NCBI RefSeq assembly: GCF_012932565.1 | Contig: NZ_JABBYJ010000003.1 | Location: forward strand, 248,001-312,000 | DNA from: Sneathiella limimaris | GTDB taxonomy: Bacteria > Pseudomonadota > Alphaproteobacteria > Sneathiellales > Sneathiellaceae | Direction of reading: 5' to 3' | DNA: 64,000 nt | In this document: in pieces, positions 33,073 to 45,717 of the stretch | How the letters are laid out: each line of letters opens with the position of its first letter | How positions within the stretch are numbered: the first letter of the stretch is position 1 | Made by a program: the position numbers and the translations under genes | Notes under the pieces: generated by a model | Seen by the model: only the letters and a program-made list of their open reading frames with translations | The model's database searches: none | What the model was told of the DNA's origin: nothing

Positions 33073-35829
33073 TTAGTCTCCGGTTTCCGCCAGAATTTCT
33101 GCCCGCTCGATGGGCAGCGTAAAGGTGAAAATAGCTCCGCCTTCATTGCTATTTTCTGCCCAAATCCGCCCCCCAAGATAGGTTACGATCTGCCGGCAAA
33201 TCGCAAGTCCGAGACCAGATCCTTGCGGTTTATGACCAATTGGTGAGACAGACTGATGAAAGCGTTCAAAGATTTTCTCTTTTAAGGGAGCCGGAACTCC
33301 AAGCCCATTATCCTGAACTGAAACCCAAACCTCCCCGTCCTGATGACCCGCTTTAAGTATGATTTCACCCTGGTTTTGATTGCAAAACTTGATGGCATTG
33401 GAAATCAGGTTAATGATCACTTGAATTAACTGATCCCGATCGGCCTGAATAGCCGGCAAATCTTCTTCCACCTCCATGTGAAGATCAATCCCCTTCTCCT
33501 TGATCAGGCCGTTAAGTGCAAAAACCGCCTCCTCAATGGTCGCGGAAAGATCCACATCCTCAAGGGACCAATCCATCCGGCCCGCTTCCATCTTGGCAAG
33601 GTCCAGCAACTGATCAATCAAGCGGGTTAGTCGCTCACTTTCGTTAATAATGATCCCCAGAAACCGGGTTCGATCCTCCACCGAGACTTGCGGATTATCG
33701 GACAGGATCTCCCCAAAGGCGCGAAGGCTGGTAAGCGGCGTTCGCAGTTCATGACTAACCATGGATAGAAAGTCATCCTTCAGGCTATCCAGCTCTTTCA
33801 AGCGGGCATTGGCTAACTGCAACTGCTGTGTTGCTTCCTCAAGCTCAGCAGATTTCTGTTCCAACTGATGGCTATATTCAATGACCTGACTGGTTTCATC
33901 GAGGATCTTGTAAACCTCATCAAGGCTAACAATGTCCCCCTTAACAATAGATCCGATCAACACCCTTGACGTCGCAGAACCAATCGACCCTGCCAATAAC
34001 CGTTCTGCGTATTCCAGAAGGGCAGGATCTACGACCTGGCTTTTACGCAAGTTCAGCATCCGATCGTCTGCAAACTCCCGAAAAGCTTCATCAACGCGGC
34101 CGACACCAACAAACCGCCCGACGAGGGCTTGCAGCTCTCCAACGGTTACCGTGCCTTTCCAATAACTGCTATCACCACTTTTTTCCGTTAGCTTGAACAC
34201 GTCCACAAACAATCGGGATTGAATGCGTTCAATGGTGCTCTGATGACTGAGGAGTGAGATCACCCAATAGGCCCCAATATTGAGGAACATGCTCCAGATC
34301 ATGGCATGTGTCAGTCGGTCAAATCCGTCCAGCCCAAAAAGGGTGTAGGGTTTTAGCCAACTAATCCCGAACGGTCCTTCCTCGATAAAGCTGATCGGCA
34401 ACCAACCAGATTGCGCCAATGAGGGAAGCAGCAAAGTATAGAGCCAGGCCAAAGTGCCAAGTGACAGACCGACAAGGGCCCCGCTAAAGGTGGCGTTTCG
34501 CCAGAAAATTCCGCCAATGATCACCGGTGCAAACTGCGCCGCAGCCGCAAAAGAGACGAGACCAATAGTCACGAGAGAATAGGACTCACTGGCAAATCGG
34601 TAATAGCCATAGCCAAGGATCAGGATCAGCAGAATACTGGCCCGGCGAATGCTGAGAAGCAGACCAGTCAGATCCGCATTTTTAGTCACATTCACCCAGC
34701 GCCATCTCAAAAGCAACGGCATCACAAGGTCATTACAAACCATTGTCGCAAGGGCGATTGCAGCCACAATCACCATGGAGGTTGCCGCGGACAATCCACC
34801 AAGGAAAGCGATCAGGGATATAATCCCCTTGTCATAGTAAAGCGGAACGGTCAGCACGAACATATCTGCATCCGCTGGAGCGCTTGAAAATGCTAGCCGA
34901 CCCCCGAGGGCAATTGGCAACACGAAGATATTTATGACCAACAGATAAGCCGGGAACAACCATGCGGCCTTTCGCAAATAGTCTTCATCGGGATTTTCCA
35001 CAGCAGTGATATAAAATTGCCGCGGCAAACAGATAATCGCGGCCATGGAGAGGATCGTCATGGTGATCCAAAGGCTGTAATCCGCATCATCCGATACCGT
35101 GAAAAGTGTCCTCAGCTCCGGGTTCACGGAAGCCCGTTGGAAAATATCGGCAAATCCATCAAAGATGCCATAAGTCACGAACACCCCAACGCAAAGAAAC
35201 GCCACCAACTTGACAACGGATTCAAATGCGATGGCTGCAACCAAGCCTTCATGATGCTCGCTGGCATCAATGTGGCGCGTGCCGAAAAGGATCGCAAACA
35301 GGGCTAGCGCAATCGCAACAATTAAAGTCGTATCAAGAAAGAAGATCGGTTCAATCGGAATTTCGGGAATAGTCCCCCCACCGGAATAGGTGATCAGGAT
35401 CCGAAAACTGGTCGCGATGGATTTCAGCTGCAGGGAAATATAGGGCATGGTTCCCACAACAGCGATAATAGTCACAAGCCCGCCAAGGGCTGAACGCTTG
35501 CCGTAGCGAGAAGCTATAAAGTCAGCGATTGAGGTAATGCGGTTCTGTTTACAAATCCGGATGATTTTGATCCAGACAAAGGACCAGAGCACAAATACCA
35601 GAGTAGGCCCTAAGTAAATCGGCAGGAAGTCCAGACCAGAGGTCGCAGCCCGCCCCACACTACCGTAATAGGTCCAGGATGTACAAAAGACAGCGATAGA
35701 GAGGGTATAAATATAAGGATTTCTAGAAAGGACGTTTTTTATGCTGCTCCGGCTATCCACATAATGCGCGATCGCAAACAACAAGCCCAGATAGAGGAAA
35801 GAGGCGGTAATAACGACACTACTGGACAT
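33073..35829 (-). CDS. Sodium/solute symporter-STAC-histidine kinase fusion (CrbS/MxtR-like)
   Basis: About 918 residues. The N-terminal ~510 residues are a sodium:solute symporter (SSS) domain with about 13 helices. A STAC-like linker follows (about 585-650; TVGELQALVGRFVGVGRVDE), then a coiled coil (ELEEATQQLQLANARLKELD), HisKA with SHELRTPLTS (His 693) and HATPase with NLISNAIKF, DNGLGVP and GSGLGLAICRQ. This is the layout of CrbS/MxtR, which senses or transports a small carboxylate and controls acs in other proteobacteria. ATG 35829 follows GGAG by 8 bases and overlaps the small upstream gene by 11 bases. Here it lies in the same direction as acs, three genes downstream. No receiver domain is present. 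Confidence 0.93.
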   Translation of the reverse strand: MSSSVVITASFLYLGLLFAIAHYVDSRSSIKNVLSRNPYIYTLSIAVFCTSWTYYGSVGRAATSGLDFLPIYLGPTLVFVLWSFVWIKIIRICKQNRITSIADFIASRYGKRSALGGLVTIIAVVGTMPYISLQLKSIATSFRILITYSGGGTIPEIPIEPIFFLDTTLIVAIALALFAILFGTRHIDASEHHEGLVAAIAFESVVKLVAFLCVGVFVTYGIFDGFADIFQRASVNPELRTLFTVSDDADYSLWITMTILSMAAIICLPRQFYITAVENPDEDYLRKAAWLFPAYLLVINIFVLPIALGGRLAFSSAPADADMFVLTVPLYYDKGIISLIAFLGGLSAATSMVIVAAIALATMVCNDLVMPLLLRWRWVNVTKNADLTGLLLSIRRASILLILILGYGYYRFASESYSLVTIGLVSFAAAAQFAPVIIGGIFWRNATFSGALVGLSLGTLAWLYTLLLPSLAQSGWLPISFIEEGPFGISWLKPYTLFGLDGFDRLTHAMIWSMFLNIGAYWVISLLSHQSTIERIQSRLFVDVFKLTEKSGDSSYWKGTVTVGELQALVGRFVGVGRVDEAFREFADDRMLNLRKSQVVDPALLEYAERLLAGSIGSATSRVLIGSIVKGDIVSLDEVYKILDETSQVIEYSHQLEQKSAELEEATQQLQLANARLKELDSLKDDFLSMVSHELRTPLTSLRAFGEILSDNPQVSVEDRTRFLGIIINESERLTRLIDQLLDLAKMEAGRMDWSLEDVDLSATIEEAVFALNGLIKEKGIDLHMEVEEDLPAIQADRDQLIQVIINLISNAIKFCNQNQGEIILKAGHQDGEVWVSVQDNGLGVPAPLKEKIFERFHQSVSPIGHKPQGSGLGLAICRQIVTYLGGRIWAENSNEGGAIFTFTLPIERAEILAETGD

Positions 35830-36097
35830 CCAGCTTCTCCGACTGCTGGTCCAATGTATCGTTAGAAGGGGTTGGCAAGACGACAGGGGTTGTAGGTTCT
35901 GGCTGGCGTCGCCGCGCACCAATGGCCACAAACAAAATCATCAAGGCCCAGAAGCCAAATAAATATAAAAAACTGAGGGGATAACTGAAAATCAGATCCG
36001 GAAGATCAAAGACCTTAATCAAGGGTGGGAAAATACCAAGCAGGAACAGGCAAAACACCAGAATGGCCCACTCCTTTTTGCGTCCCGTCCTTTGCAT
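35819..36097 (-). CDS. Small two-helix membrane protein linked to the symporter-kinase
   Basis: A 92-residue protein with two membrane helices (about residues 11-27 and 38-60) and a polar, proline- and glutamine-rich tail (RRRQPEPTTPVVLPTP). I do not recognise a named family with certainty. Small two-helix partners (DUF485/DUF4212 type) are known next to SSS transporters such as ActP, and position suggests that role here. It overlaps the start of the symporter-kinase gene by 11 bases and begins 29 bases after the response regulator, so all three are probably one operon. An accessory subunit of the SSS domain is the best guess. Confidence 0.7.
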   Translation of the reverse strand: MQRTGRKKEWAILVFCLFLLGIFPPLIKVFDLPDLIFSYPLSFLYLFGFWALMILFVAIGARRRQPEPTTPVVLPTPSNDTLDQQSEKLDVQ

Positions 36098-36126: not shown

Positions 36127-36504
36127 TCAGGAAAGTTCAACCTTCAACAGCTGTTTGGCCGTGTCTGCCAATTCACGCGTTGAAAACGGCTTCGTCACAA
36201 ACCGGTCAGCCCCCAGTTTCATTGCTTTGTCTCGATCAGCCTCTCTGCTCTTAGCCGAGAGCATGATGATTTTCACATTTTTACACGCTGGATTATTCCG
36301 GATTTCCTCACAAACAGCAAAGCCGTCCCGCTTGGGCAGCATAATATCCAAGAGAACGAGATCCGGAACATATTCCTCCACCGCCTTCAAGGCCTGCTCT
36401 CCATCAGACGCAACCCGCACAGTATATCCGGATTGGCGCATAATAAACTGCAGGGACAGGACGATATTTGGCTCATCCTCGACAACCAGCACTGTATTTG
36501 ACAT
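36127..36504 (-). CDS. Receiver-only (CheY-like) response regulator
   Basis: About 125 residues, a single receiver domain with no output. It has the acidic pair in VVEDEPN, the phosphorylation site aspartate in LVLLDIMLPKRDG, the switch serine in IIMLSAKS and the conserved lysine in VTKPFS. I chose ATG 36504 (MSNTVLVVEDE), with AGGGA upstream. It lies between acs and the symporter-kinase gene and is the obvious partner of that kinase. Its CrbR/ErdR counterparts carry a LuxR-type DNA-binding domain; this one ends right after the receiver (KQLLKVELS), so it must act through protein contacts or a phosphorelay. Confidence 0.93.
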   Translation of the reverse strand: MSNTVLVVEDEPNIVLSLQFIMRQSGYTVRVASDGEQALKAVEEYVPDLVLLDIMLPKRDGFAVCEEIRNNPACKNVKIIMLSAKSREADRDKAMKLGADRFVTKPFSTRELADTAKQLLKVELS

Positions 36505-36700: not shown

Positions 36701-38641
36701 TTAACGGTTCATCCGGTTCTCAATCAGTTCATCGACAACAGCAGGATCTGCAAGTGTTGATGTATCTCCTAGTGACTTATAGTCATTTTCTGCGACTTTC
36801 CGCAAAATCCGCCGCATAATTTTGCCCGACCGGGTTTTCGGCAGGCCAGGTGCCCACTGAATAAGATCTGGCGAGGCAATAGGTCCAATTTCCTGACGCA
36901 CCCAAGTTACCAGTTCTTTACGTAACTCTTCGCTTGGCTCCGCACCGACACCCAACGTGACATAGGCGTAAATACCTTGTCCCTTGATGTCATGTGGGTA
37001 TCCAACCACCGCTGCCTCCGAAACTTTCGGATGAGCGACAAGAGCACTTTCCACTTCAGCCGTTCCCATCCGGTGACCGGATACATTGATCACGTCATCC
37101 ACACGGCCGGTAATCCAGTAATAGCCATCGGCATCGCGGCGAGCCCCGTCACCGGAGAAATATTTACCAGGGAAGTTGGAGAAATATGTCTGGATAAACC
37201 GTTCATGGTCACCATAAACAGTCCGCATCTGACCTGGCCAGCTGTCCTTGATACACAGAACACCCTCGCATTCACCCTCGAGGACTTTGCCCTCATTATC
37301 CACCATCACGGGATCAACCCCGAAGAACGGCCGAGTGGCAGAGCCTGGTTTAAGGTCTGTCGCCCCTGGCAACGGCGTAATCAAAATGCCGCCAGTTTCG
37401 GTTTGCCACCAAGTATCAACAATTGGACAGCGTTTCTCACCAACGACCTCGTAATACCATCTCCAGGCTTCTGGGTTAATTGGCTCACCAACCGAACCCA
37501 ACAGGCGGATGGATTTTCGGGATGTCGCTTTAACAGGGTCATCACCGGCCTGCATCAAAGCCCGAATAGCTGTTGGCGCGGTGTAGAAAATATTGACTTT
37601 ATGCTTATCGCATACATCCCAGAAACGGGACATGTTCGGGTAATTGGGCACCCCTTCAAACATCAGGGTAGTTGCACCATTAGCGAGCGGACCATAGAGG
37701 ATATAGCTATGCCCGGTCACCCAGCCCACATCAGCTGTACACCAGTAGATATCCCCATCATGATAATCAAACACATACTGATGGGTCATGGACGCATAGA
37801 CCAGGTATCCACCGCTCGTATGCATCACCCCTTTAGGCTGACCTGTTGACCCTGAAGTATAAAGAATGAACAGCGGATCTTCGGCATTCATCTCTTCAGG
37901 TGGACAGTCGTCGGAGGCAGCTTCCATAATATCGTGATACCAGACGTCACGCCCCTCTACCCAGTTGATATCATTCCCGGTCCGTTTGACAACGATACAG
38001 GTCGTGCAATCAGGACAGCTTTTGAGGGCTTCATCCGTATTGACCTTGAGCGGAATAATGCGGCCACCGCGCACACCTTCATCAGCCGTGATGATGCAAT
38101 TGGATTCGCAGTCCTTAATCCGGCCAGCCAATGCATCCGGGGAGAAACCACCAAACACAACAGAATGAACGGCACCAATCCGGGTACAGGCCAGCATTGC
38201 GACAGCTGCCTCAATGATCATCGGCATATAGATGGTGACGCGATCGCCTTTCTTGACGCCTTGCGCTTTCATGGCGTTTGAAAGCTTGCAGACTTCCCGA
38301 TGCAGTTCCTTGTATGTCAGGGTCTTGTCATCGGTTGGCTCATCGCCCTCCCAAATGATCGCTGGCTGGTCCCCTTTGGTTGCTAGATGGCGGTCGATAC
38401 AGTTGGCACTGACATTCAACGTTCCATCATAAAACCAGCGAATATGGAGGTCCTTGGCATCATAGGACACATCCTTGACCTTCGTATAAGGCTTGATCCA
38501 GTCAATCCGCTTTCCGTGCTCGGCCCAGAAACCTTCCGGATCCTCAACGGATGCCTTGTACATTTCCTCATACTTAGCGTTGTCAATCCAGGCGGATTTG
38601 GCAACTTCGTCAGACACTGGATATACTTCGTTCGTGGACAT
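36701..38641 (-). CDS. acs: Acetyl-coenzyme A synthetase
   Basis: A 646-residue AMP-forming acetyl-CoA synthetase, full family length. Recognisable are the ATP-binding [17 protein letters not shown], the WWQTETGG segment typical of acetate-specific members, the hinge/adenylate motif [18 protein letters not shown], and [11 protein letters not shown] with the lysine at 607, the site normally controlled by reversible acetylation. It activates acetate to acetyl-CoA through acetyl-AMP in the cytoplasm. A possible -35 (TTGACA, minus strand 38746-38741) lies about 100 bases upstream without a convincing -10. Downstream on the same strand are the receiver protein and the CrbS-like kinase; upstream is an ABC importer. 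Confidence 0.97.
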
Positions 38642-38800: not shown

Positions 38801-39517
38801 TCAAATTGCCAGATATTCATGGCGAAGTTCCTGATCATCCAGAACTTCTTTCGCTGTTCCTCTAAACGCGATCTTACCCATATCAAGAATAAGTGCCTTA
38901 TCCGCAAGCTGAAGAGCAGCGACCGCATTTTGCTCCACAATAATCGTGGTGATGCCCAATTTCCGCACTTCCATCAGGATGCGCTCAATTTCTTCCACGA
39001 TCACAGGCGCAAGTCCTTCATAGGGCTCATCCAGGAACAGAATTTTCACATCCCGAGCCAATGCCCGCGCGACGGCCAGCATCTGCTGCTCACCCCCGGA
39101 CATGGTTGTTGCTTCCTGGTTACGCCGCTCGCCGAGCCGAGGGAAATGATCGTAAATCTTCTCAATTTCCCAACCCTTAGGCTCTGACACCTGAGATAAG
39201 ATCAGGTTTTCCTCCACGGTAAGTCCGCCAATAATCCGGCGATCTTCAGGGACCAGCTGAATACCTGCCTGCGCGGCCTGATAGCTTTTCATCTCATGAA
39301 CAGCTTCTCCGTTCAGGTAAATCTCCCCCTTCGTCAGCTGAGGATCATCAACCCGGGCCAGAGCCCGCAATGTTGATGTCTTGCCCGCGCCATTTCGGCC
39401 AAGCAAGGCAACGATTTCGCCTTCTTCGACATCGAAGGAAACACCCTGAACGATATAGCTTTCGCCATAATAGGCATGAATATCGCGAACACTGAAAAAT
39501 GCAGAATTTTCGCTCAT
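38801..39517 (-). CDS. ABC transporter ATP-binding protein, LivF type
   Basis: A 238-residue ATPase of the LivF branch. It has Walker A GRNGAGKTS, signature MSGGEQQML, Walker B ILFLDEPYEGLAP and the switch histidine replaced by the LivF-typical IVEQNA. The LVPEDRRI segment is also characteristic. It pairs with the LivG-type ATPase, whose stop overlaps its start (one shared base). It is the last gene of the five-gene importer on the minus strand, 160 bases before acs. A HAAT-family importer can carry amino acids, amides, urea or short acids; its neighbours favour a carboxylate-related cargo here. Confidence 0.93.
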   Translation of the reverse strand: MSENSAFFSVRDIHAYYGESYIVQGVSFDVEEGEIVALLGRNGAGKTSTLRALARVDDPQLTKGEIYLNGEAVHEMKSYQAAQAGIQLVPEDRRIIGGLTVEENLILSQVSEPKGWEIEKIYDHFPRLGERRNQEATTMSGGEQQMLAVARALARDVKILFLDEPYEGLAPVIVEEIERILMEVRKLGITTIIVEQNAVAALQLADKALILDMGKIAFRGTAKEVLDDQELRHEYLAI

Positions 39518-40275
39518 CAGTGGGCTCCTCCCAAATAAGCCTCTTTAACTTTCGGATCTTCCCGAACATCTTCTGGCTTACCGCCAGCGATAATCTGACC
39601 CCGGGCCAGAACACTCACCTTGTCAGCAAGGCTGAAAACCACATGCATGTCATGTTCGATGATCACTTTGGTCATCCCCCGGCTCTTAATCTTCTTCAAC
39701 AGATCAATCGTCCGGTTTGTGTCATGCCGGGACATACCGGCTGTCGGCTCATCCAGCAAAAGAAGCTTCGGATGCAAGATTAGGCACATAGCCAGTTCCA
39801 GCCGTCGTTTGTCACCACGAGACAGACTACCAGCCTCCTGCATCATCTGTTCCTGCAAGCCCACATCCTCAAGAATGTGCTGAGCTTCATCGCGGATTTC
39901 AGTCTGTCCGGTGAGCTGGGCATAACCGTTCATCTTAAACGCCCCATCGCGTTTGGAAAACGCTGGCAACATTACATTTTCCAGAAGTGACATCTCCGGG
40001 AAAATCTCAGGTGTCTGGAACACACGGGCAACGCCAAGCTGTGCAATTTCATGAGGTTGGCGCCCCGTAAGCTCGGTTCCCTTGAAAGTCACATGACCGG
40101 AATCTGGCTTCAGTCGGCCGATACAGACATTCAGCAAGGTTGATTTGCCGGCACCGTTTGGACCAATGATGGCATGGGTCGTTCCCTCTTCCACTTGCAA
40201 ATTTACGTCGGAAAGGGCGCTCAAACCACCAAAACTCTTTTGGATATTATCCAGGTGAAGGACTAGATCATTCAT
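39517..40275 (-). CDS. ABC transporter ATP-binding protein, LivG type
   Basis: A 252-residue ATPase of the LivG branch. It has Walker A GPNGAGKST, signature LSRGDKRRLELAM, Walker B LLLLDEPTAGMS and the switch histidine in VIIEHDM. The RQPHEIAQLGVARVFQ segment is typical of this family. It sits between the LivM-type permease (12 bases upstream) and the LivF-type ATPase (one-base overlap). The signature LSRGDKR, rather than LSYGQQR, places it closer to the urea/short-amide type transporters than to strict leucine transporters, but this is only suggestive. Confidence 0.93.
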   Translation of the reverse strand: MNDLVLHLDNIQKSFGGLSALSDVNLQVEEGTTHAIIGPNGAGKSTLLNVCIGRLKPDSGHVTFKGTELTGRQPHEIAQLGVARVFQTPEIFPEMSLLENVMLPAFSKRDGAFKMNGYAQLTGQTEIRDEAQHILEDVGLQEQMMQEAGSLSRGDKRRLELAMCLILHPKLLLLDEPTAGMSRHDTNRTIDLLKKIKSRGMTKVIIEHDMHVVFSLADKVSVLARGQIIAGGKPEDVREDPKVKEAYLGGAH

Positions 40276-40287
40276 ACTCTTTACTCC

Positions 40288-41445
40288 CTATTCACCCGGC
40301 TGATCTTGCGGGGAGGCTGAACCGCCTACACTACCATTTTTACGAGCCCCACTGATCCAATTGACCAGTTTCGAGATCCCTTCAACTATGCCGCCCGGCA
40401 GGAAGATCACGATAACCATGAACAGCAGACCCAAGGTCAGATGCCAGCCACCACCGACGAACAATCCAACGATTGGAACCACAACTTCAGCGACCGCATC
40501 AGGCAAGAAGGAGAACATATCCATCAGCACGTTATTGTTAAAGGCTGAGAAGATATTTTCGAAATACTTGATCAACCCTGCTCCGAGCATTGGCCCCACA
40601 AGGGTTCCAACGCCGCCAAGGATGGTCATCAACACGACCTCACCAGAGGCTGTCCACTGCATCCGTTCCGCACCCGCAAGAGGGTCAGTTACTGCCAGAA
40701 GTGAACCTGCGAGACCTGCATACATGCCGGAGATTACAAAAGCGGTCAGCATATATGGCCGCGTGTTCAAGCCAGTGTACCGCATCCGGTTCTGGTTTGA
40801 TTTGATACCCCGAAGCATCAATCCAAAGGGTGAGCGAAAGATCCGCATTGAAATATAGAAGCAGATGATCAGTAGAACGGCACAGAAGTAAAACCCTGGA
40901 TAACCGCTCATTTTCAAGCCAAACAGATTGGTAGAAGGCAAGCCTGAACCCGCTTCAACAAAGAGACTGTCAATAATCCGTGGATCCTGCTGGGAAAGCT
41001 GCAACCCTGTTTCACCGTTGGTAATCGGTGTCAGCACCGAATAAGCCAGGTTATAGGACATCTGGGCAAACGCCAGCGTCAGGATCGAGAAGTAAATCCC
41101 TGTCCTTCGCAGGCTGAGGAACCCAATTGCAGCCGCCAAAAGACCCGCAAAGATCATTCCGAAAAATACAGCTGGGATCGCGTTCATTGTGAACAGCTTA
41201 AAGGACCAAACCGCTGCGTAGGAGCCAATTCCGAGGAATGCAGCATGACCGAAGGAGAGGTATCCTGTCAGGCCAAAAAGGATGTTAAAGCCAATTGCAA
41301 AAATCCCGTAAATTGCAAATTTCTGCAGCAGGTCCGGATAGTTTCCACCCAAGGGTTCAAGCCAAAGCGGCATCGCCAAGATAATGACCGCAAACAGCAC
41401 GAACCGGGTGATATCGTTCATTTGACCAAATTTCATCTTAATCAT
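40288..41445 (-). CDS. ABC transporter permease, LivM type
   Basis: A 385-residue permease with about ten membrane helices and the coupling segment [20 protein letters not shown] near residues 55-75 and [16 protein letters not shown] in the second half, both standard for LivM. A polar C-terminal tail ([21 protein letters not shown]) is unusual but short. ATG 41445 overlaps the LivH-type gene by eight bases; an ATG at 41436 is an alternative. It forms the membrane channel together with the LivH-type protein. Confidence 0.93.
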
Positions 41446-42454
41446 CCATCACACCGGCACGACCCATCAAACCGCGGGGCAGTACCAACAAAATAATAAC
41501 AGCAACCAGATAGATAATGATCTGGTCAATACCCGGCAGGATCGACTTCACTTCAGTCATCGAAGCAAAGGACTGGACAATACCGAGAAGAAAACCAGCA
41601 AGAACTGCGCCGCCAAGGGACCCCATTCCGCCAACAACAACAACGACAAAGGAAAGGACAAGGAAATCCATACCCATATGGTAATCAGGTGGCAGGATCG
41701 GCGTGTACATTACGCCTGCCAGACCAGCAACAACAGTTGCCATGGCAAACACAATCGTAAACCGCTTCTGAATATTAATCCCTAACAGCCCCACGGTCTC
41801 TCGATCTCTCATACCTGCGCGGACAACCATTCCGTAGGTCGTAAATTGCAGGAAGGAGAACACGGCGAGAATAATCACACCCGAGAACACCAGGTAAACC
41901 AGTCGCCACCAGGGATAGACAACAGCCTCACCCAAACCAATCCAACTACCAACAGAAGCACTGCCAGACAGAATATCAGGAGCGGTTTGTGGAATTGGGT
42001 TGGCTCCAAAGACAACTTTAATAATTTCCTGCAGAACAATCGCCAGACCAAATGTCACAAGGATTTGTTCTGCATGTGGCCGTTTATAGAAATGCTTGAT
42101 CAGGCCCCTTTCCATGACATATCCCACAAGGATCATCACGGGTATGGCCAGCAGAATAGACAGCGGCACTGAATACTGAATGAGTAACGGCCCCCAATCC
42201 GGGAACCAAATTTCCAGGTAAGGTTTCTCCTTGAACGCCTTAAACAGCGTCACATTGGTGTCTTCAACCTTGGTTGAGATCAACATCAATTTATTGAAAG
42301 AAACCGCACAAAAGGCACCGAGCATAAACAAGGCACCATGTGCGAAATTCACAATACCCAGGGTCCCGAACACAAGGGTCAGTCCCAGCGCAATCAGCGC
42401 ATAAGCCGCCCCCTTATCCAACCCATTCAGTATTTGAAGAACTACAGCATCCAT
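41438..42454 (-). CDS. ABC transporter permease, LivH type
   Basis: A 338-residue permease with about eight to nine helices. The N-terminal [38 protein letters not shown] segment and the [16 protein letters not shown] motif are LivH hallmarks. A polar insertion (about residues 60-85; [23 protein letters not shown]) lengthens the first periplasmic loop compared with E. coli LivH. It follows the binding-protein gene after 108 bases that contain a terminator-like hairpin, so the permease and ATPase genes are probably expressed at a lower level than the binding protein. Confidence 0.93.
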
Positions 42455-42508
42455 TACATCTATCCCACTGATGAAAAGGCCTGATCAAACGCCTTTCCCA
42501 AACTCTGG

Positions 42509-42556
42509 AAAAAAGGACGGGCCGGCATTCCGCAGCATCGCCGACCCGCCAAAAAA
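42509..42556 (-). terminator. Attenuator-like intrinsic terminator between binding-protein and permease genes
   Basis: On the minus strand an 11-12 bp GC-rich stem (GGCGGGTCGGC against GCCGGCCCGTCC, with one mismatch and one G-U) is followed by TTTTTT, and also preceded by TTTTTT. It lies just after the binding-protein stop. Partial termination here would raise binding protein over permease and ATPase. Confidence 0.8.
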
Positions 42557-42562
42557 GCTGAA

Positions 42563-43909
42563 TTAGACTTTATATGGGCCTAATTCGCCTCCAAAGATCT
42601 TCCAGTCATACTCAACCTGTGACCGAGGAACGATCTGTTCCACTTTCAGCAGGTCAAACTGGCTGGTTGGGTTCTCGTTACCGCGCACCACAAGCACATC
42701 TTTAAAGCACTGATGATCTTCTGCACGATATTCGGTAGCACCATTACCCATGCCATCAAATTTAAAGCCTTCAAGGGCTTTGATGACTTCTGGTGGATAG
42801 AAGGTTCCGGCCATTTCACAGGCATTTGCATAAAGCAATGTCTGAACATAGCAGGTGTGCGCTGCCATTGAAGGAGGCGCACCATATTCGGCACCGAAGG
42901 ATTTCACGAAGGCTTGTGAGCCTTCATCCTGCAGTGACCAGTTCCAGTTAGTTGTACCAAGGATACCTTTAATAGCTTCGCCAGCACCCTGCGCCATCAG
43001 ACGTGAGAACAGCGGCACAACGATTTCGAAGTTCTTGCCGTTGACCTGTTTCTCGCGAAGGCCAAACTGGACGGCCTGGCTCAGAGAGTTGATCATGTCT
43101 TTACCGTAGTGGTTCAGGATCAATACGTCTGCACCAGAGTTCAGAACTGGAGTGATATACTGTGAGAAGTCACCGGCACCCACAGGAGTTTTGACTGTTG
43201 CTGTTGTCTGCCAGCCCAGTTCCTCTGTAGTTGCTTTAATGGATTCTTCCTGTGTCCAGCCCCAAGTGTAGTCGGCTGTCAGATGGTAAGCACGGCGTTC
43301 CTTGCCATATTCTTTTTCAAGCACAGGACCCAGTGCACGACCGGACATATATGCATTAAAGAAGTGGCGGAAACCATACCGGCGCTTGTCTTTACCAGTG
43401 GTATCGTTCGAGTGAGTCAGACCCGCCATGAAGATAACGCCTTCTTCCTGGCAAAGAGACTGCACAGCAATAGCCACACCGGAAGATGAACCACCGGAGA
43501 CCATCAGAACCTGTTCTTTCTCGATCAAGCGCTTGGCTGATGCACGCGCGGCGTCAGACTTAGTCTGAGTATCACCTGTTGCATATTCCACTTTCTTGCC
43601 GAGAACACCGTTACCTTTCAAGCTTGATGGCTTAAAGGTGTTCAGCATACCGCCGTCGCCTTCACCGTTCAGATGCTTGACCGCTAGTTTAAAAGCGCGA
43701 AGTTCGTCTTTACCCTCTTCTGAGTAAGGACCGGTTTGTGGCACGTTAAAGCCCAGCTTAATAGAGCTGGCGTTACCTGGGTTGTTTCTGAATTCTTCTG
43801 CCCAGGCATTCTGCATAAAGAATGTAGGGGTAGCCGCAACGATACCGGCACCGGCACCGGCTTTCAGCAGACCACGTCGTGAGAAATCGAACTTACTCTT
43901 ATCCGTCAT
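42563..43909 (-). CDS. Periplasmic substrate-binding protein of a Liv/HAAT-type ABC importer (Tat-exported)
   Basis: About 448 residues. The N-terminus has a twin-arginine signal (SRRGLLKAGAGAGIV, cleavage after NAWA), so the protein is exported folded. The mature part is a type I periplasmic-binding fold of the LivK/UrtA/AmiC superfamily (SIKLGFNVPQTGPYSEEGKDE start; SGGSSSGVAIAVQSLCQEEGV). At over 400 residues it is longer than LivK, like other UrtA-type members. ATG 43909 follows GGAGG by 6 bases. It is divergent from the ScfR-type regulator and first in the importer operon upstream of acs. A short-chain acid, amide or related substrate is inferred from these neighbours. Confidence 0.9.
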   Translation of the reverse strand: MTDKSKFDFSRRGLLKAGAGAGIVAATPTFFMQNAWAEEFRNNPGNASSIKLGFNVPQTGPYSEEGKDELRAFKLAVKHLNGEGDGGMLNTFKPSSLKGNGVLGKKVEYATGDTQTKSDAARASAKRLIEKEQVLMVSGGSSSGVAIAVQSLCQEEGVIFMAGLTHSNDTTGKDKRRYGFRHFFNAYMSGRALGPVLEKEYGKERRAYHLTADYTWGWTQEESIKATTEELGWQTTATVKTPVGAGDFSQYITPVLNSGADVLILNHYGKDMINSLSQAVQFGLREKQVNGKNFEIVVPLFSRLMAQGAGEAIKGILGTTNWNWSLQDEGSQAFVKSFGAEYGAPPSMAAHTCYVQTLLYANACEMAGTFYPPEVIKALEGFKFDGMGNGATEYRAEDHQCFKDVLVVRGNENPTSQFDLLKVEQIVPRSQVEYDWKIFGGELGPYKV

Positions 43910-44074
43910 ATTGTTCCTCCCTAATTGTCCAGCGATCGCCTGCCTCCAACACACACAGGAGGAACAGCGTGATAATAATCGCTATGGAGGTGTAAAAATT
44001 TCACAATTTCATTAGGAATACCAATAAAACATTGTTTTTAATGGTTTTTTAATGTTAATATTGAAAATATAATT

Positions 44075-44099
44075 TTGTAAACTTGTAAAGGTTTGTAAA
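44075..44099. promoter_or_regulatory. Three TTGTAAA direct repeats before the ScfR-type regulator
   Basis: TTGTAAA occurs at 44075, 44083 and 44093, each on the plus strand, ending at the start codon; the first bases of the gene (TTGGCAAAA) make a fourth weak copy. The repeats resemble the TTTGCAAA core reported for RamB-family sites. Autoregulation and control of the divergent importer gene, whose start is about 170 bases away, are inferred. Confidence 0.45.
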
Positions 44100-44100
44100 T

Positions 44101-45717
44101 TTGGCAAAACAGACTTTCCTTGGAAACAAGCTACGACGCTTGCGAATTGACAAGCGGCTCTCGCAAGTCGATCTTGCTGCGGAGCTTGGAATATCAGCTA
44201 GTTACTTGAATCTGATTGAGCATGACCGGCGGGATTTGACGGTTCCACTGCTGCTCAAAATAAGTCAAACTTTGAAAGTTGATCCGCTTGTGTTCGCCAG
44301 CGAGCAAGATGGTCAGCTTCTCGCGGATATAGGTGAAATAATGCAAGATCCCCTGTTGGGATCTAGCCAGCCGCCCGAAGATTCCGTCTCTCGCTTCGTC
44401 TCTGAGCATCAGGATATCGCTCATGCTTTCACCAAGCTTTATCAAGGATACAAAACAGCATCAACGGATCTGCAATATCTGCGGGAACGCCTCTCTCAAG
44501 ACAGTGTCCTGGCGGATAGCTCCTTTCGCCTGAGAACCCTCGTCACCTCCATTATGTCGTTAACTGAGATCATGCGGGACAACGCCGATATGGATCAGAA
44601 GCAGCGCCAGGAATTTCTACAAATCGTTGTTAATGACAGCACGTCCCTGACGGAAACAATCAATGAGATGCTTGGTTTTGTCGGAATGGATAAAGAAGCC
44701 GGTTCAACGATCAATGTCTCCCCCGACGATGCAGTAACTGACTTTATCCAACAGAATAATAACTATTTTGAAGAAGTGGAGAGCGCCGCAAAAGATCTGA
44801 TCGCCCGGCTTGATATCCCTTTCACGCCAAATATCCCAGCATTAAGCGATTATCTTCTCAAACAACTGAACGTTACAGTCGAGTTTGCAGATAAGGAACG
44901 TCATGATACAGAAATTTCCTTGTATGATGAAGAACGCCGGCACCTGACATTGTCTCGCTCCCTTCCGCCCAGCAGCGTTAAATTTCACTTGGCATTGCTG
45001 ATCGGGCAACTGCAGTTTCAGGACTTGTTAAGTGGTCTGGTTGCGAAATCGGATCTCCTGCCTGATATGGCTAAGGAAAAAGGAATGGCGGCAATGTCGA
45101 ACTATTTTGCTGGCGCCTGCCTCCTTCCTTACGACATGTTCTATGAAGCGGCTGAAGAGCTGCGTTATGATATTGAACTTCTGCAGCAACAATTTGGTGC
45201 CAGTTACGAACAAATTTGTCATCGCCTCACGACCCTCCAGAAACCAGAGAAAAGTGGGGTTCCCTTTCATCTGATCCGGACAGATATCGCCGGAAATATC
45301 TCAAAACGCTTTAGCGCCTCAGGACTTCGTATCCCCCGATATGGGAGTGCCTGCCCGCGATGGGTTGTTCATTCATCAATACTGACACCAGGAACGCTAT
45401 GCACCCAAATTTCCGAGATGCCGGATGGAAACCAGTATTTCTCCATTGCGCGCACGGTCACAAAACCCAGTCTTGGCTTTAAATACCCGAAACGCCACTA
45501 TGCCATCAGTATTGGTTGCGAAATTTCTCATGCAAACCGCTTGATTTATGCAGACGGCATGAATATCGAGGCCCCCAAAACGGTCATGCCGGTTGGGATC
45601 ACCTGCCGGTTATGTGATCGGAAAAACTGCGCGCACCGGGCGGCACCTCCTCCTCAGCAATCAAGCCGCCCCACATCCACCAAGCGAAACATCTCTCCAG
45701 GTATTGGCGAGTGGTGA
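44101..45717 (+). CDS. ScfR/RamB-type transcriptional regulator (short-chain fatty-acyl regulator family) with a DHp-like insert
   Basis: A 538-residue regulator. Residues 8-62 are an XRE-type helix-turn-helix (SQVDLAAELGISASYLNLIEHDRR). A coiled coil (110-135) and a segment at 139-193 resembling a histidine-kinase dimerisation hairpin follow. Next comes a degenerate IrrE/ImmA-like domain (about 240-370) lacking HExxH, then the C-terminal short-chain fatty-acyl regulator domain (about 400-525) with its cysteine signature CRLCDRKNCAHRA. Relatives such as RamB control acetate and propionate genes. The start is TTG 44101, with AAAGG nine bases upstream. It is divergent from the Liv-type importer that precedes acs, supporting a role in short-chain acid use. 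Confidence 0.9.
   Translation: MAKQTFLGNKLRRLRIDKRLSQVDLAAELGISASYLNLIEHDRRDLTVPLLLKISQTLKVDPLVFASEQDGQLLADIGEIMQDPLLGSSQPPEDSVSRFVSEHQDIAHAFTKLYQGYKTASTDLQYLRERLSQDSVLADSSFRLRTLVTSIMSLTEIMRDNADMDQKQRQEFLQIVVNDSTSLTETINEMLGFVGMDKEAGSTINVSPDDAVTDFIQQNNNYFEEVESAAKDLIARLDIPFTPNIPALSDYLLKQLNVTVEFADKERHDTEISLYDEERRHLTLSRSLPPSSVKFHLALLIGQLQFQDLLSGLVAKSDLLPDMAKEKGMAAMSNYFAGACLLPYDMFYEAAEELRYDIELLQQQFGASYEQICHRLTTLQKPEKSGVPFHLIRTDIAGNISKRFSASGLRIPRYGSACPRWVVHSSILTPGTLCTQISEMPDGNQYFSIARTVTKPSLGFKYPKRHYAISIGCEISHANRLIYADGMNIEAPKTVMPVGITCRLCDRKNCAHRAAPPPQQSSRPTSTKRNISPGIGEW

Follow-up and report, generated by a model that had tools for sequence, protein, structure and literature searches.

An ScfR-type regulator of Sneathiella limimaris carries a predicted kinase-type DHp hairpin and belongs to a conserved module with a bare receiver and a transporter-kinase

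The stretch of the Sneathiella limimaris genome considered here (64,000 nucleotides, contig NZ_JABBYJ010000003.1, positions 248,001 to 312,000 of the forward strand; hereafter the window) encodes a regulator of the ScfR/RamB type (44101..45717, + strand) with an insert of about 65 residues between its helix-turn-helix (HTH) and M78 domains. By profile search, profile–profile comparison and AlphaFold prediction, residues 135-193 (44503..44679, +) are a true dimerisation and histidine-phosphotransfer (DHp, HisKA-like) hairpin of the kind found in histidine kinases, in which a phenylalanine takes the position of the phospho-acceptor histidine. The regulator, a bare receiver and an SLC5/SSS transporter-histidine kinase (SSS-HK) form a conserved module. 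On the reading that we favour, with a probability of about 0.6, the signal would pass from the SSS-HK to the receiver and from there to the DHp of the regulator, mostly through phosphotransfer, and in the window's clade through docking alone.

A first-pass annotation of the window, made from its letters, had noted that residues 139-193 (44515-44679) read like a DHp, that they line up nearly without gaps with the DHp of the transporter-kinase in the same window, and that a two-helix hairpin was to be expected there. All of this was borne out. With BLASTP the two DHp regions align without a gap over residues 134-196 of the regulator (E=1e-9, for a single comparison). The Pfam HisKA model matches residues 137-193 with 22.0 bits (E=1.7e-4), below its curated cut-off of 26.9 bits, which is exceeded by two of the four relatives tested singly (L060 with 38.8 bits and L201 with 32.4 bits). 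The NCBIfam model of the kinase PnpS matches residues 136-224 at 5.7e-9, and structures of HK853 were matched by phmmer at 3.4e-5. A profile made from 46 family segments found HK853 (1.6e-5) and DivL (0.002) in the PDB, with at least two non-kinases (7obi at 5e-4 and 3m1t at 0.02) among its 13 matches at E≤0.1, and a comparison by hhalign with the DHps of kinases from the same genome gave a probability of 97.3 with an E of 2.2e-11. The AlphaFold model of the whole protein, with a mean predicted local distance difference test score (pLDDT) of 86.7, has helices at residues 104-132 (44410..44496, +), 135-160 and 166-193, the ten-residue block means of pLDDT lying between 67 and 88 across residues 131-190. 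Modelling of the segment alone gave the same three helices. A chance resemblance to a DHp was also considered, and was ruled out by the independent searches with profiles, structure libraries and relatives.

The replacement of the His by Phe was likewise read correctly from the letters: in the alignment with relatives Phe142 (codon 44524..44526, +) occupies the position of the H-box histidine. Phenylalanine is found there in 23 of 23 readable orthologues of the window's genus, a further genome of the 24, about 70% complete, having given no regulator match. Outside the genus the residue is His in 112 of 115 relatives, Gln in two and Tyr in one. The idea that a His-less DHp is the usual state of the family is thereby ruled out, and for the family as a whole phosphotransfer becomes at least as likely as mere docking. 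The 115 relatives are made up of 36 loci from a class search and 79 of 80 named loci. The first set covers 35 of the 37 genomes for which, out of 385 drawn from the class, an insert-bearing regulator was listed, together with G001, of the same family, from an order search; of the two genomes outside it, G311 was read separately and has His and G282 is unread. The named loci came from one scan of GTDB genomes with a search pattern that does not span the histidine, and are the best 80 of 539 candidate relatives by similarity to a query that has the His; kinases may be among the remainder. L219, outside the count of 115, was read separately and has His. Since five records occur in both sets (L150/G025, L152/G052, L156/G119, L211/G233 and L219/G130) and there are many close kin (Thalassospira, Devosia), the 115 are not independent.

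In a quick tree built from 116 regulators, of which five belong to the genus and several sit on long branches, the Phe-bearing genus and the Tyr-bearing genome form one clade with a support of 100, and the Gln pair lies elsewhere, so that two losses of the histidine suffice. From this pattern in the sequences we take the His-less state of the window's clade to be derived. The His-less DHp has evidently stayed under purifying selection, as mean pairwise identity within the genus is 90% in the H-box (residues 139-152), against 52% and 46% in the flanking linkers; over the DHp it is 74% and over the HTH 76%. Among the nine stretches compared, which were of our own choosing, the H-box was the best kept.

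The residues around the histidine position are also informative. The H-box His, the acidic residue at +1 and the residue at +4 have roles in phosphotransfer and autophosphorylation. Thr, Ser or Asn is present at +4 in 112 of the 115 regulators and Glu at +1 in just eight (six +1 residues were not itemised), and SHExxTP is kept in all 29 uncut kinases of the neighbouring clusters. A domain that does not autophosphorylate but trades phosphate with a receiver would be expected to lose the acidic +1 residue and to retain the His and the +4 residue.

In relatives the usual gene order is regulator, bare receiver and transporter-kinase on one strand, with an operon of a substrate-binding protein and livHMGF running divergently; this operon is present in 31 of the 36 class-search stretches. 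In the window's genus the substrate-binding protein, livHMGF, acs, the receiver, a small membrane protein and the SSS-HK all run one way and the regulator the opposite way. In the window and in four genus stretches the receiver and kinase have stayed at the locus of the regulator, on the far side of the divergent operon. The receiver of the window (36127..36504, −, 125 residues) consists of a receiver domain only according to Pfam. The open reading frame (ORF) of the SSS-HK spans 33073..35931 (−), its true start probably lying about 35 codons further in. Pfam returned no match for its transporter half, which we take by eye, and from its likeness to SSS-kinases, to be of the SSS type; its DHp (SHELRTPLTS, residues 718-784; 33580..33780, −) was identified by Pfam and BLASTP.

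To score adjacency we asked for a receiver domain no more than 500 bp downstream of the regulator, on the same strand and in an ORF of fewer than 400 residues. Such a receiver was found at 98 of 113 loci (25 of 36 from the class search and 73 of 77 named loci, three of the 80 named loci being cut off) and at none of 20 ScfR paralogues lacking the insert, controls that we picked from the higher-scoring insert-lacking matches of the class search. At L060 the receiver lies at 701 bp. Among the class-search loci 11 were exceptions, and in six of these the stretch holds a receiver at another place (doubtful in L081). Genome-wide searches placed the receiver beside an SSS-HK elsewhere in the genome in G388, G233, G140 and G244, and in G103 on another contig, with 60% identity to the query. 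An insert-bearing regulator without any receiver was not seen among the five class-search loci searched genome-wide, L184, L204, L167 and G087 not having been followed in this way; the annotation had named this, together with absence of DHp similarity and of a hairpin, as fatal to its proposal, and in the material examined none of the three turned up. The phosphorylation residues (the Asp, the acidic pair, the Lys and the Thr/Ser) are kept in 109 of 109 receiver rows, that of the window included.

The annotation had proposed a receiver near acs as the partner of the insert. The adjoining receiver stands, while the link with acs proves to be mostly specific to the genus: acs lies nearby in 4 of 4 genus stretches, at none of the 36 class-search loci and at 3 of the 80 named loci. 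As to the kinase, a non-hybrid SSS-HK is present in 53 of the 385 class genomes (from a reading of tables, the copy of G313 being cut by a contig end). Outside the genus 37 genomes have a listed insert-bearing regulator, and 36 of them also have such a kinase, the exception being 68% complete. Insert-bearing regulators outside the genus occur in at least those 37 of the 385 genomes, and three more were found later.

The DHp of the regulator resembles those of the SSS-HKs in particular. Among the DHps of its own genome, in a set without one weak HisKA match (C1:1630378), that of the window's SSS-HK came first with 46.2 bits, followed by one at 32.0. All 120 regulator DHps compared have their nearest match among 30 SSS-HK DHps, and for none does it fall among the 53 other DHps, the latter being taken from the genome G000 only. 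The DHp of the window's regulator has a better match in the SSS-HK of another genome (58.9 bits) than in that of its own genome. Nearness to the SSS-HK DHps fits a shared receiver specificity, a shared origin, or both.

In the mechanism that we propose, the SSS-HK would autophosphorylate on its own DHp and then phosphorylate the free-standing receiver, which has no output domain; the canonical residues of the kinase and of the receiver argue for this step. The receiver would next bind the DHp of the regulator, between the DNA-binding domain and the part thought likely to sense acyl-CoA and to hold an Fe-S cluster, a step that we infer from the module and from the presence of the DHp. In most lineages the receiver probably hands its phosphoryl group to the DHp histidine, the DHp serving as an acceptor without kinase activity. 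Such a transfer has a precedent in Caulobacter, where PhyK acts as a phosphotransferase and its DHp receives phosphate from MrrA, a single-domain receiver (PMC5964349). In the window's clade, with Phe for His, the phosphorylated receiver would only dock, and by shifting the conformation of the regulator would presumably affect its binding to DNA. DivK~P may serve as the model here, since the DHp of DivL, with Tyr in place of the His, binds DivK~P, and the Y550F variant still does so specifically (PMC4211667). The regulator would then merge an outside signal with an acyl-CoA signal at the divergent promoter of the ABC transporter operon, which in the genus includes acs. A bolder form of this proposal, which we advance tentatively and with rather less confidence than an even chance, is that the output of a two-component system has here been reversed: the free receiver would phosphorylate a histidine on a transcription factor, phosphohistidine would be the final signal, to be combined with acyl-CoA sensing, and the window's clade would have turned the interface into a phosphate-free docking switch.

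Several observations weigh against this relay from SSS-HK through receiver to regulator. Taken as single sequences the segments match HisKA weakly, with E≤0.01 in 12 of 39 members. When the segment was used as a Foldseek query nothing reached E≤0.001 and HK853 came fourth with E=0.59, as might be anticipated for an isolated pair of helices. At 15 of the 113 loci the receiver lies elsewhere than directly downstream, and in the control L242 a 350-residue ORF at 532 bp, just past the limit, contains a receiver domain. Over 65 non-redundant pairs the partial distance correlation with the receiver was much the same for the DHp (0.48), the HTH (0.40) and the C-terminus (0.41). In the ranking by mutual information the HTH control equalled the DHp in enrichment at the docking face of the receiver within the first 25 and 50 pairs, and the DHp was slightly ahead only within the first 100 and 200. 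Neither measure clearly set the DHp apart from the HTH control. The histidine was lost at least twice with the receiver and kinase kept, so phosphotransfer cannot be indispensable. Lastly, 12 genomes with an SSS-HK and no listed insert-bearing regulator were opened. Three of them do carry such a regulator, with the receiver adjoining, and three others (L266, L269 and L274) were assigned to neither group, but in at least six a different DHp-like protein stands beside the receiver and replaces the regulator.

This replacement, encoded between the receiver and the SSS-HK, is a DnaQ-like exonuclease (RNase_T) protein (L265:2078-4780 +, L267:8516-10996 −, L268:7936-10083 −, L271:6394-8664 +, L272:2621-4726 + and L273:2514-4763 +), and a PAS domain was detected in five of the six. 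Its DHp-like stretch has no His and by eye has Phe, Met or Trp there; the family profile finds the stretch in four of the six proteins and HisKA weakly matches the other two. A docking role would lead one to expect such a pairing, in which a bare receiver adjoins a further type of protein whose DHp-like segment lacks the His, and from its gene position and sequence the DnaQ-like protein is possibly a second output of the same receiver.

Three other explanations seem unlikely to us, though each accounts for part of the data. DHp domains dimerise in kinases. It could therefore be that the DHp is a dimerisation or spacing module which joins two regulator subunits and never meets a receiver, and the absence of the His in two lineages would agree with this, as would the dimeric state of DivL (PMC4211667) and the fact that ScfR regulators act as oligomers, PrpR being a tetramer (PMC6765138). 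A spacer, however, would need neither a near-invariant His nor a Thr, Ser or Asn at +4, each present in 112 of 115 regulators. Such a role would also leave unexplained both the adjoining receiver gene (98 of 113 loci against none of the 20 paralogues) and the special likeness to the SSS-HK DHp, and paralogues without the insert exist in the genus, where five ScfR paralogues from three genomes lack the H-box stretch.

Alternatively, the DHp could have become a relic in the genus, the His having been lost, the regulator gene having moved apart from the receiver, and acyl-CoA sensing alone remaining. Both lineages that lost the His, namely the Phe/Tyr clade and the Gln pair, do have the regulator away from the receiver-kinase pair, and there is no loss of the His among the 98 loci with a receiver within 500 bp. 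Decay of this kind is nevertheless improbable when the DHp of the genus is as conserved as the HTH, with the H-box the best kept stretch of all, when receiver and kinase stay at the locus in the window and the four genus stretches, and when other lineages with the regulator set apart (e.g. G233 and L204) keep the His. A mixed four-helix bundle with the DHp of the SSS-kinase, for direct phosphorylation of the His or membrane tethering or both, with the receiver as a phosphate sink, is the least probable of the three, since, even though the SSS kinases are the nearest DHp relatives among those compared and the regulator and kinase genes are usually neighbours, the acidic +1 residue, which has a role in autophosphorylation, is present in 29 of 29 kinases and as Glu in just 8 of 115 regulators, which disfavours direct phosphorylation by the kinase ATPase domain, and little role would be left for the conserved adjacency of the receiver.

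Apart from the DHp, the regulator has the layout of its family. Its gene has 538 codons and, as the first codon is TTG, its exact start is uncertain. Pfam finds an HTH_3 DNA-binding domain at residues 11-63 (44131..44289, +; 42.1 bits), a Peptidase_M78/IrrE-like domain at residues 254-377 (44860..45231, +) and the ScfRs C-terminal domain at residues 378-532 (45232..45696, +), and all three were also found in 39 of 39 members of alignment A4. There is no Pfam match to HATPase, the catalytic (CA) domain of kinases, the M78 and ScfRs domains following the DHp instead. Four cysteines for a 4Fe-4S cluster, C418 and the C-x2-C-x4-C motif of C502, C505 and C510, are invariant in alignment A1 and at least 90% conserved in A4. 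The best NCBIfam model is the RamB equivalog NF038139, with 417 bits against a curated cut-off of 700, and the nearest solved structure is PrpR (phmmer, 2e-76); with the whole AlphaFold model as query, PrpR, IrrE/PprI and HTH proteins are among the 50 best rows of Foldseek. The cysteines and the ScfRs domain suggest that this regulator too senses acyl-CoA, a ligand role assigned by homology to PrpR (PMC6765138).

Upstream of the regulator start, two TTTGTAAA boxes at 44074-44081 and 44092-44099, without strand assignment, are candidate binding sites. Their starts are 18 bases apart, and both boxes fall within the divergent promoter region. Over the 220 bases that precede the regulator, TTTGTAAA or TTTACAAA occurs at 58 of 118 loci (118 of the 121 regulators were used), whereas 50 shuffles that preserve dinucleotides gave 2.4 loci on average and 7 at most. 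The 58 loci include close kin and so are not independent. As sequence motifs the TTTGTAAA boxes fit autoregulation together with control of the transporter operon. That operon (38801..43915, −) is divergent from the regulator and encodes a branched-chain-type ATP-binding cassette (ABC) transporter, with genes that we take, from their sequences, to be livF, livG, livM and livH-like, and a gene for a substrate-binding protein. It is followed by acs (36701..38641, −), an acetate--CoA ligase gene above the cut-offs of NF001208 and TIGR02188.

Between the receiver and the kinase of the window lies a small protein of 92 residues (35819..36097, −), a membrane protein as judged by eye. A small membrane-protein ORF is present there at both loci inspected, L025 and the window, and the L025 counterpart belongs to no Pfam or NCBIfam family above cut-off. 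At L025, from G001 in the family's other genus, the regulator keeps the His (IHEMLTEITAL) and the receiver lies about 100 bp downstream (L025:288-656 − and L025:760-2289 −). One clade of regulators within the alphaproteobacterial tree comes from 12 records (L189, L190, L192, L193, L195, L198, L199, L202, L207, L212, L216 and L224) that are named as kin of the Burkholderiales or Burkholderiaceae, two of them to phylum only. Their receivers adjoin, and the position of these sequences in the tree suggests a lateral transfer.

Like RamB, PrpR, MccR and PccR of the ScfR family, the window's regulator has HTH_3, M78-like and ScfRs domains and the C-x2-C-x4-C motif with a fourth Cys; what sets it apart from them is the DHp, some 65 residues long, that separates its HTH from its M78 domain. 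Spo0B is a DHp-type phospho-acceptor fed by a receiver, and DivL is not known to be a DNA-binding regulator. In having an aromatic residue for the DHp His and a free receiver, DivK, as partner, the DivL-DivK pair is similar to the window's system, and DivL is among the PDB matches of the family profile. DivL, however, has the PAS, DHp and CA domains of a kinase-like protein (PMC4211667), whereas the DHp of the window is in a transcription factor and most of its relatives keep the His. MrrA-PhyK (PMC5964349) and ChpT likewise involve a DHp-type phospho-acceptor that takes phosphate from a receiver. PhyK, ChpT and Spo0B all pass it on to a response regulator, whereas in the window's system the DNA-binding protein has the DHp built in. 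CrbS/R, MxtR/ErdR and RpuS/R share the SLC5/SSS transporter-kinase as a sensor and are concerned with the use of acetate or pyruvate (PMC9100948, PMC5436829), but CrbS and RpuS of S. fredii are hybrid kinases with a LuxR-type response regulator (PMC9100948). In the window, by contrast, a kinase that lacks a receiver stands with a receiver that lacks an output domain, and the role of output would fall to an ScfR regulator with a DHp. A DNA-binding response regulator beside the SSS-HK, as in systems of the CrbS/R type, is not present, the window's receiver being a receiver domain alone. Titles and the starts of abstracts from open-licence papers gave no account of an ScfR regulator with a built-in DHp, and the subgroup may be mentioned in the paper that founded the family (Carter and Alber 2015). 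In passages of PMC12632250 and PMC5231405 nothing was found that bears on such a DHp. The nearest prior mention is of the Paracoccus ScfR protein Pden_1785, which clusters with two-component genes (PMC10370305).

A bare receiver and an SSS-kinase with no obvious output are hard to place, and the missing output seems to be a regulator that carries a docking domain of kinases. The module is widespread: to the class genomes outside the genus that are counted above come the named loci, which include Thalassospira, Devosia, Novispirillum and Burkholderiales. The natural changes of His to Phe or Tyr and of His to Gln offer ready-made tests of phosphotransfer against docking. If the proposal is true, a family that senses acyl-CoA would become a meeting point of an outside signal and the acyl-CoA state of the cell.

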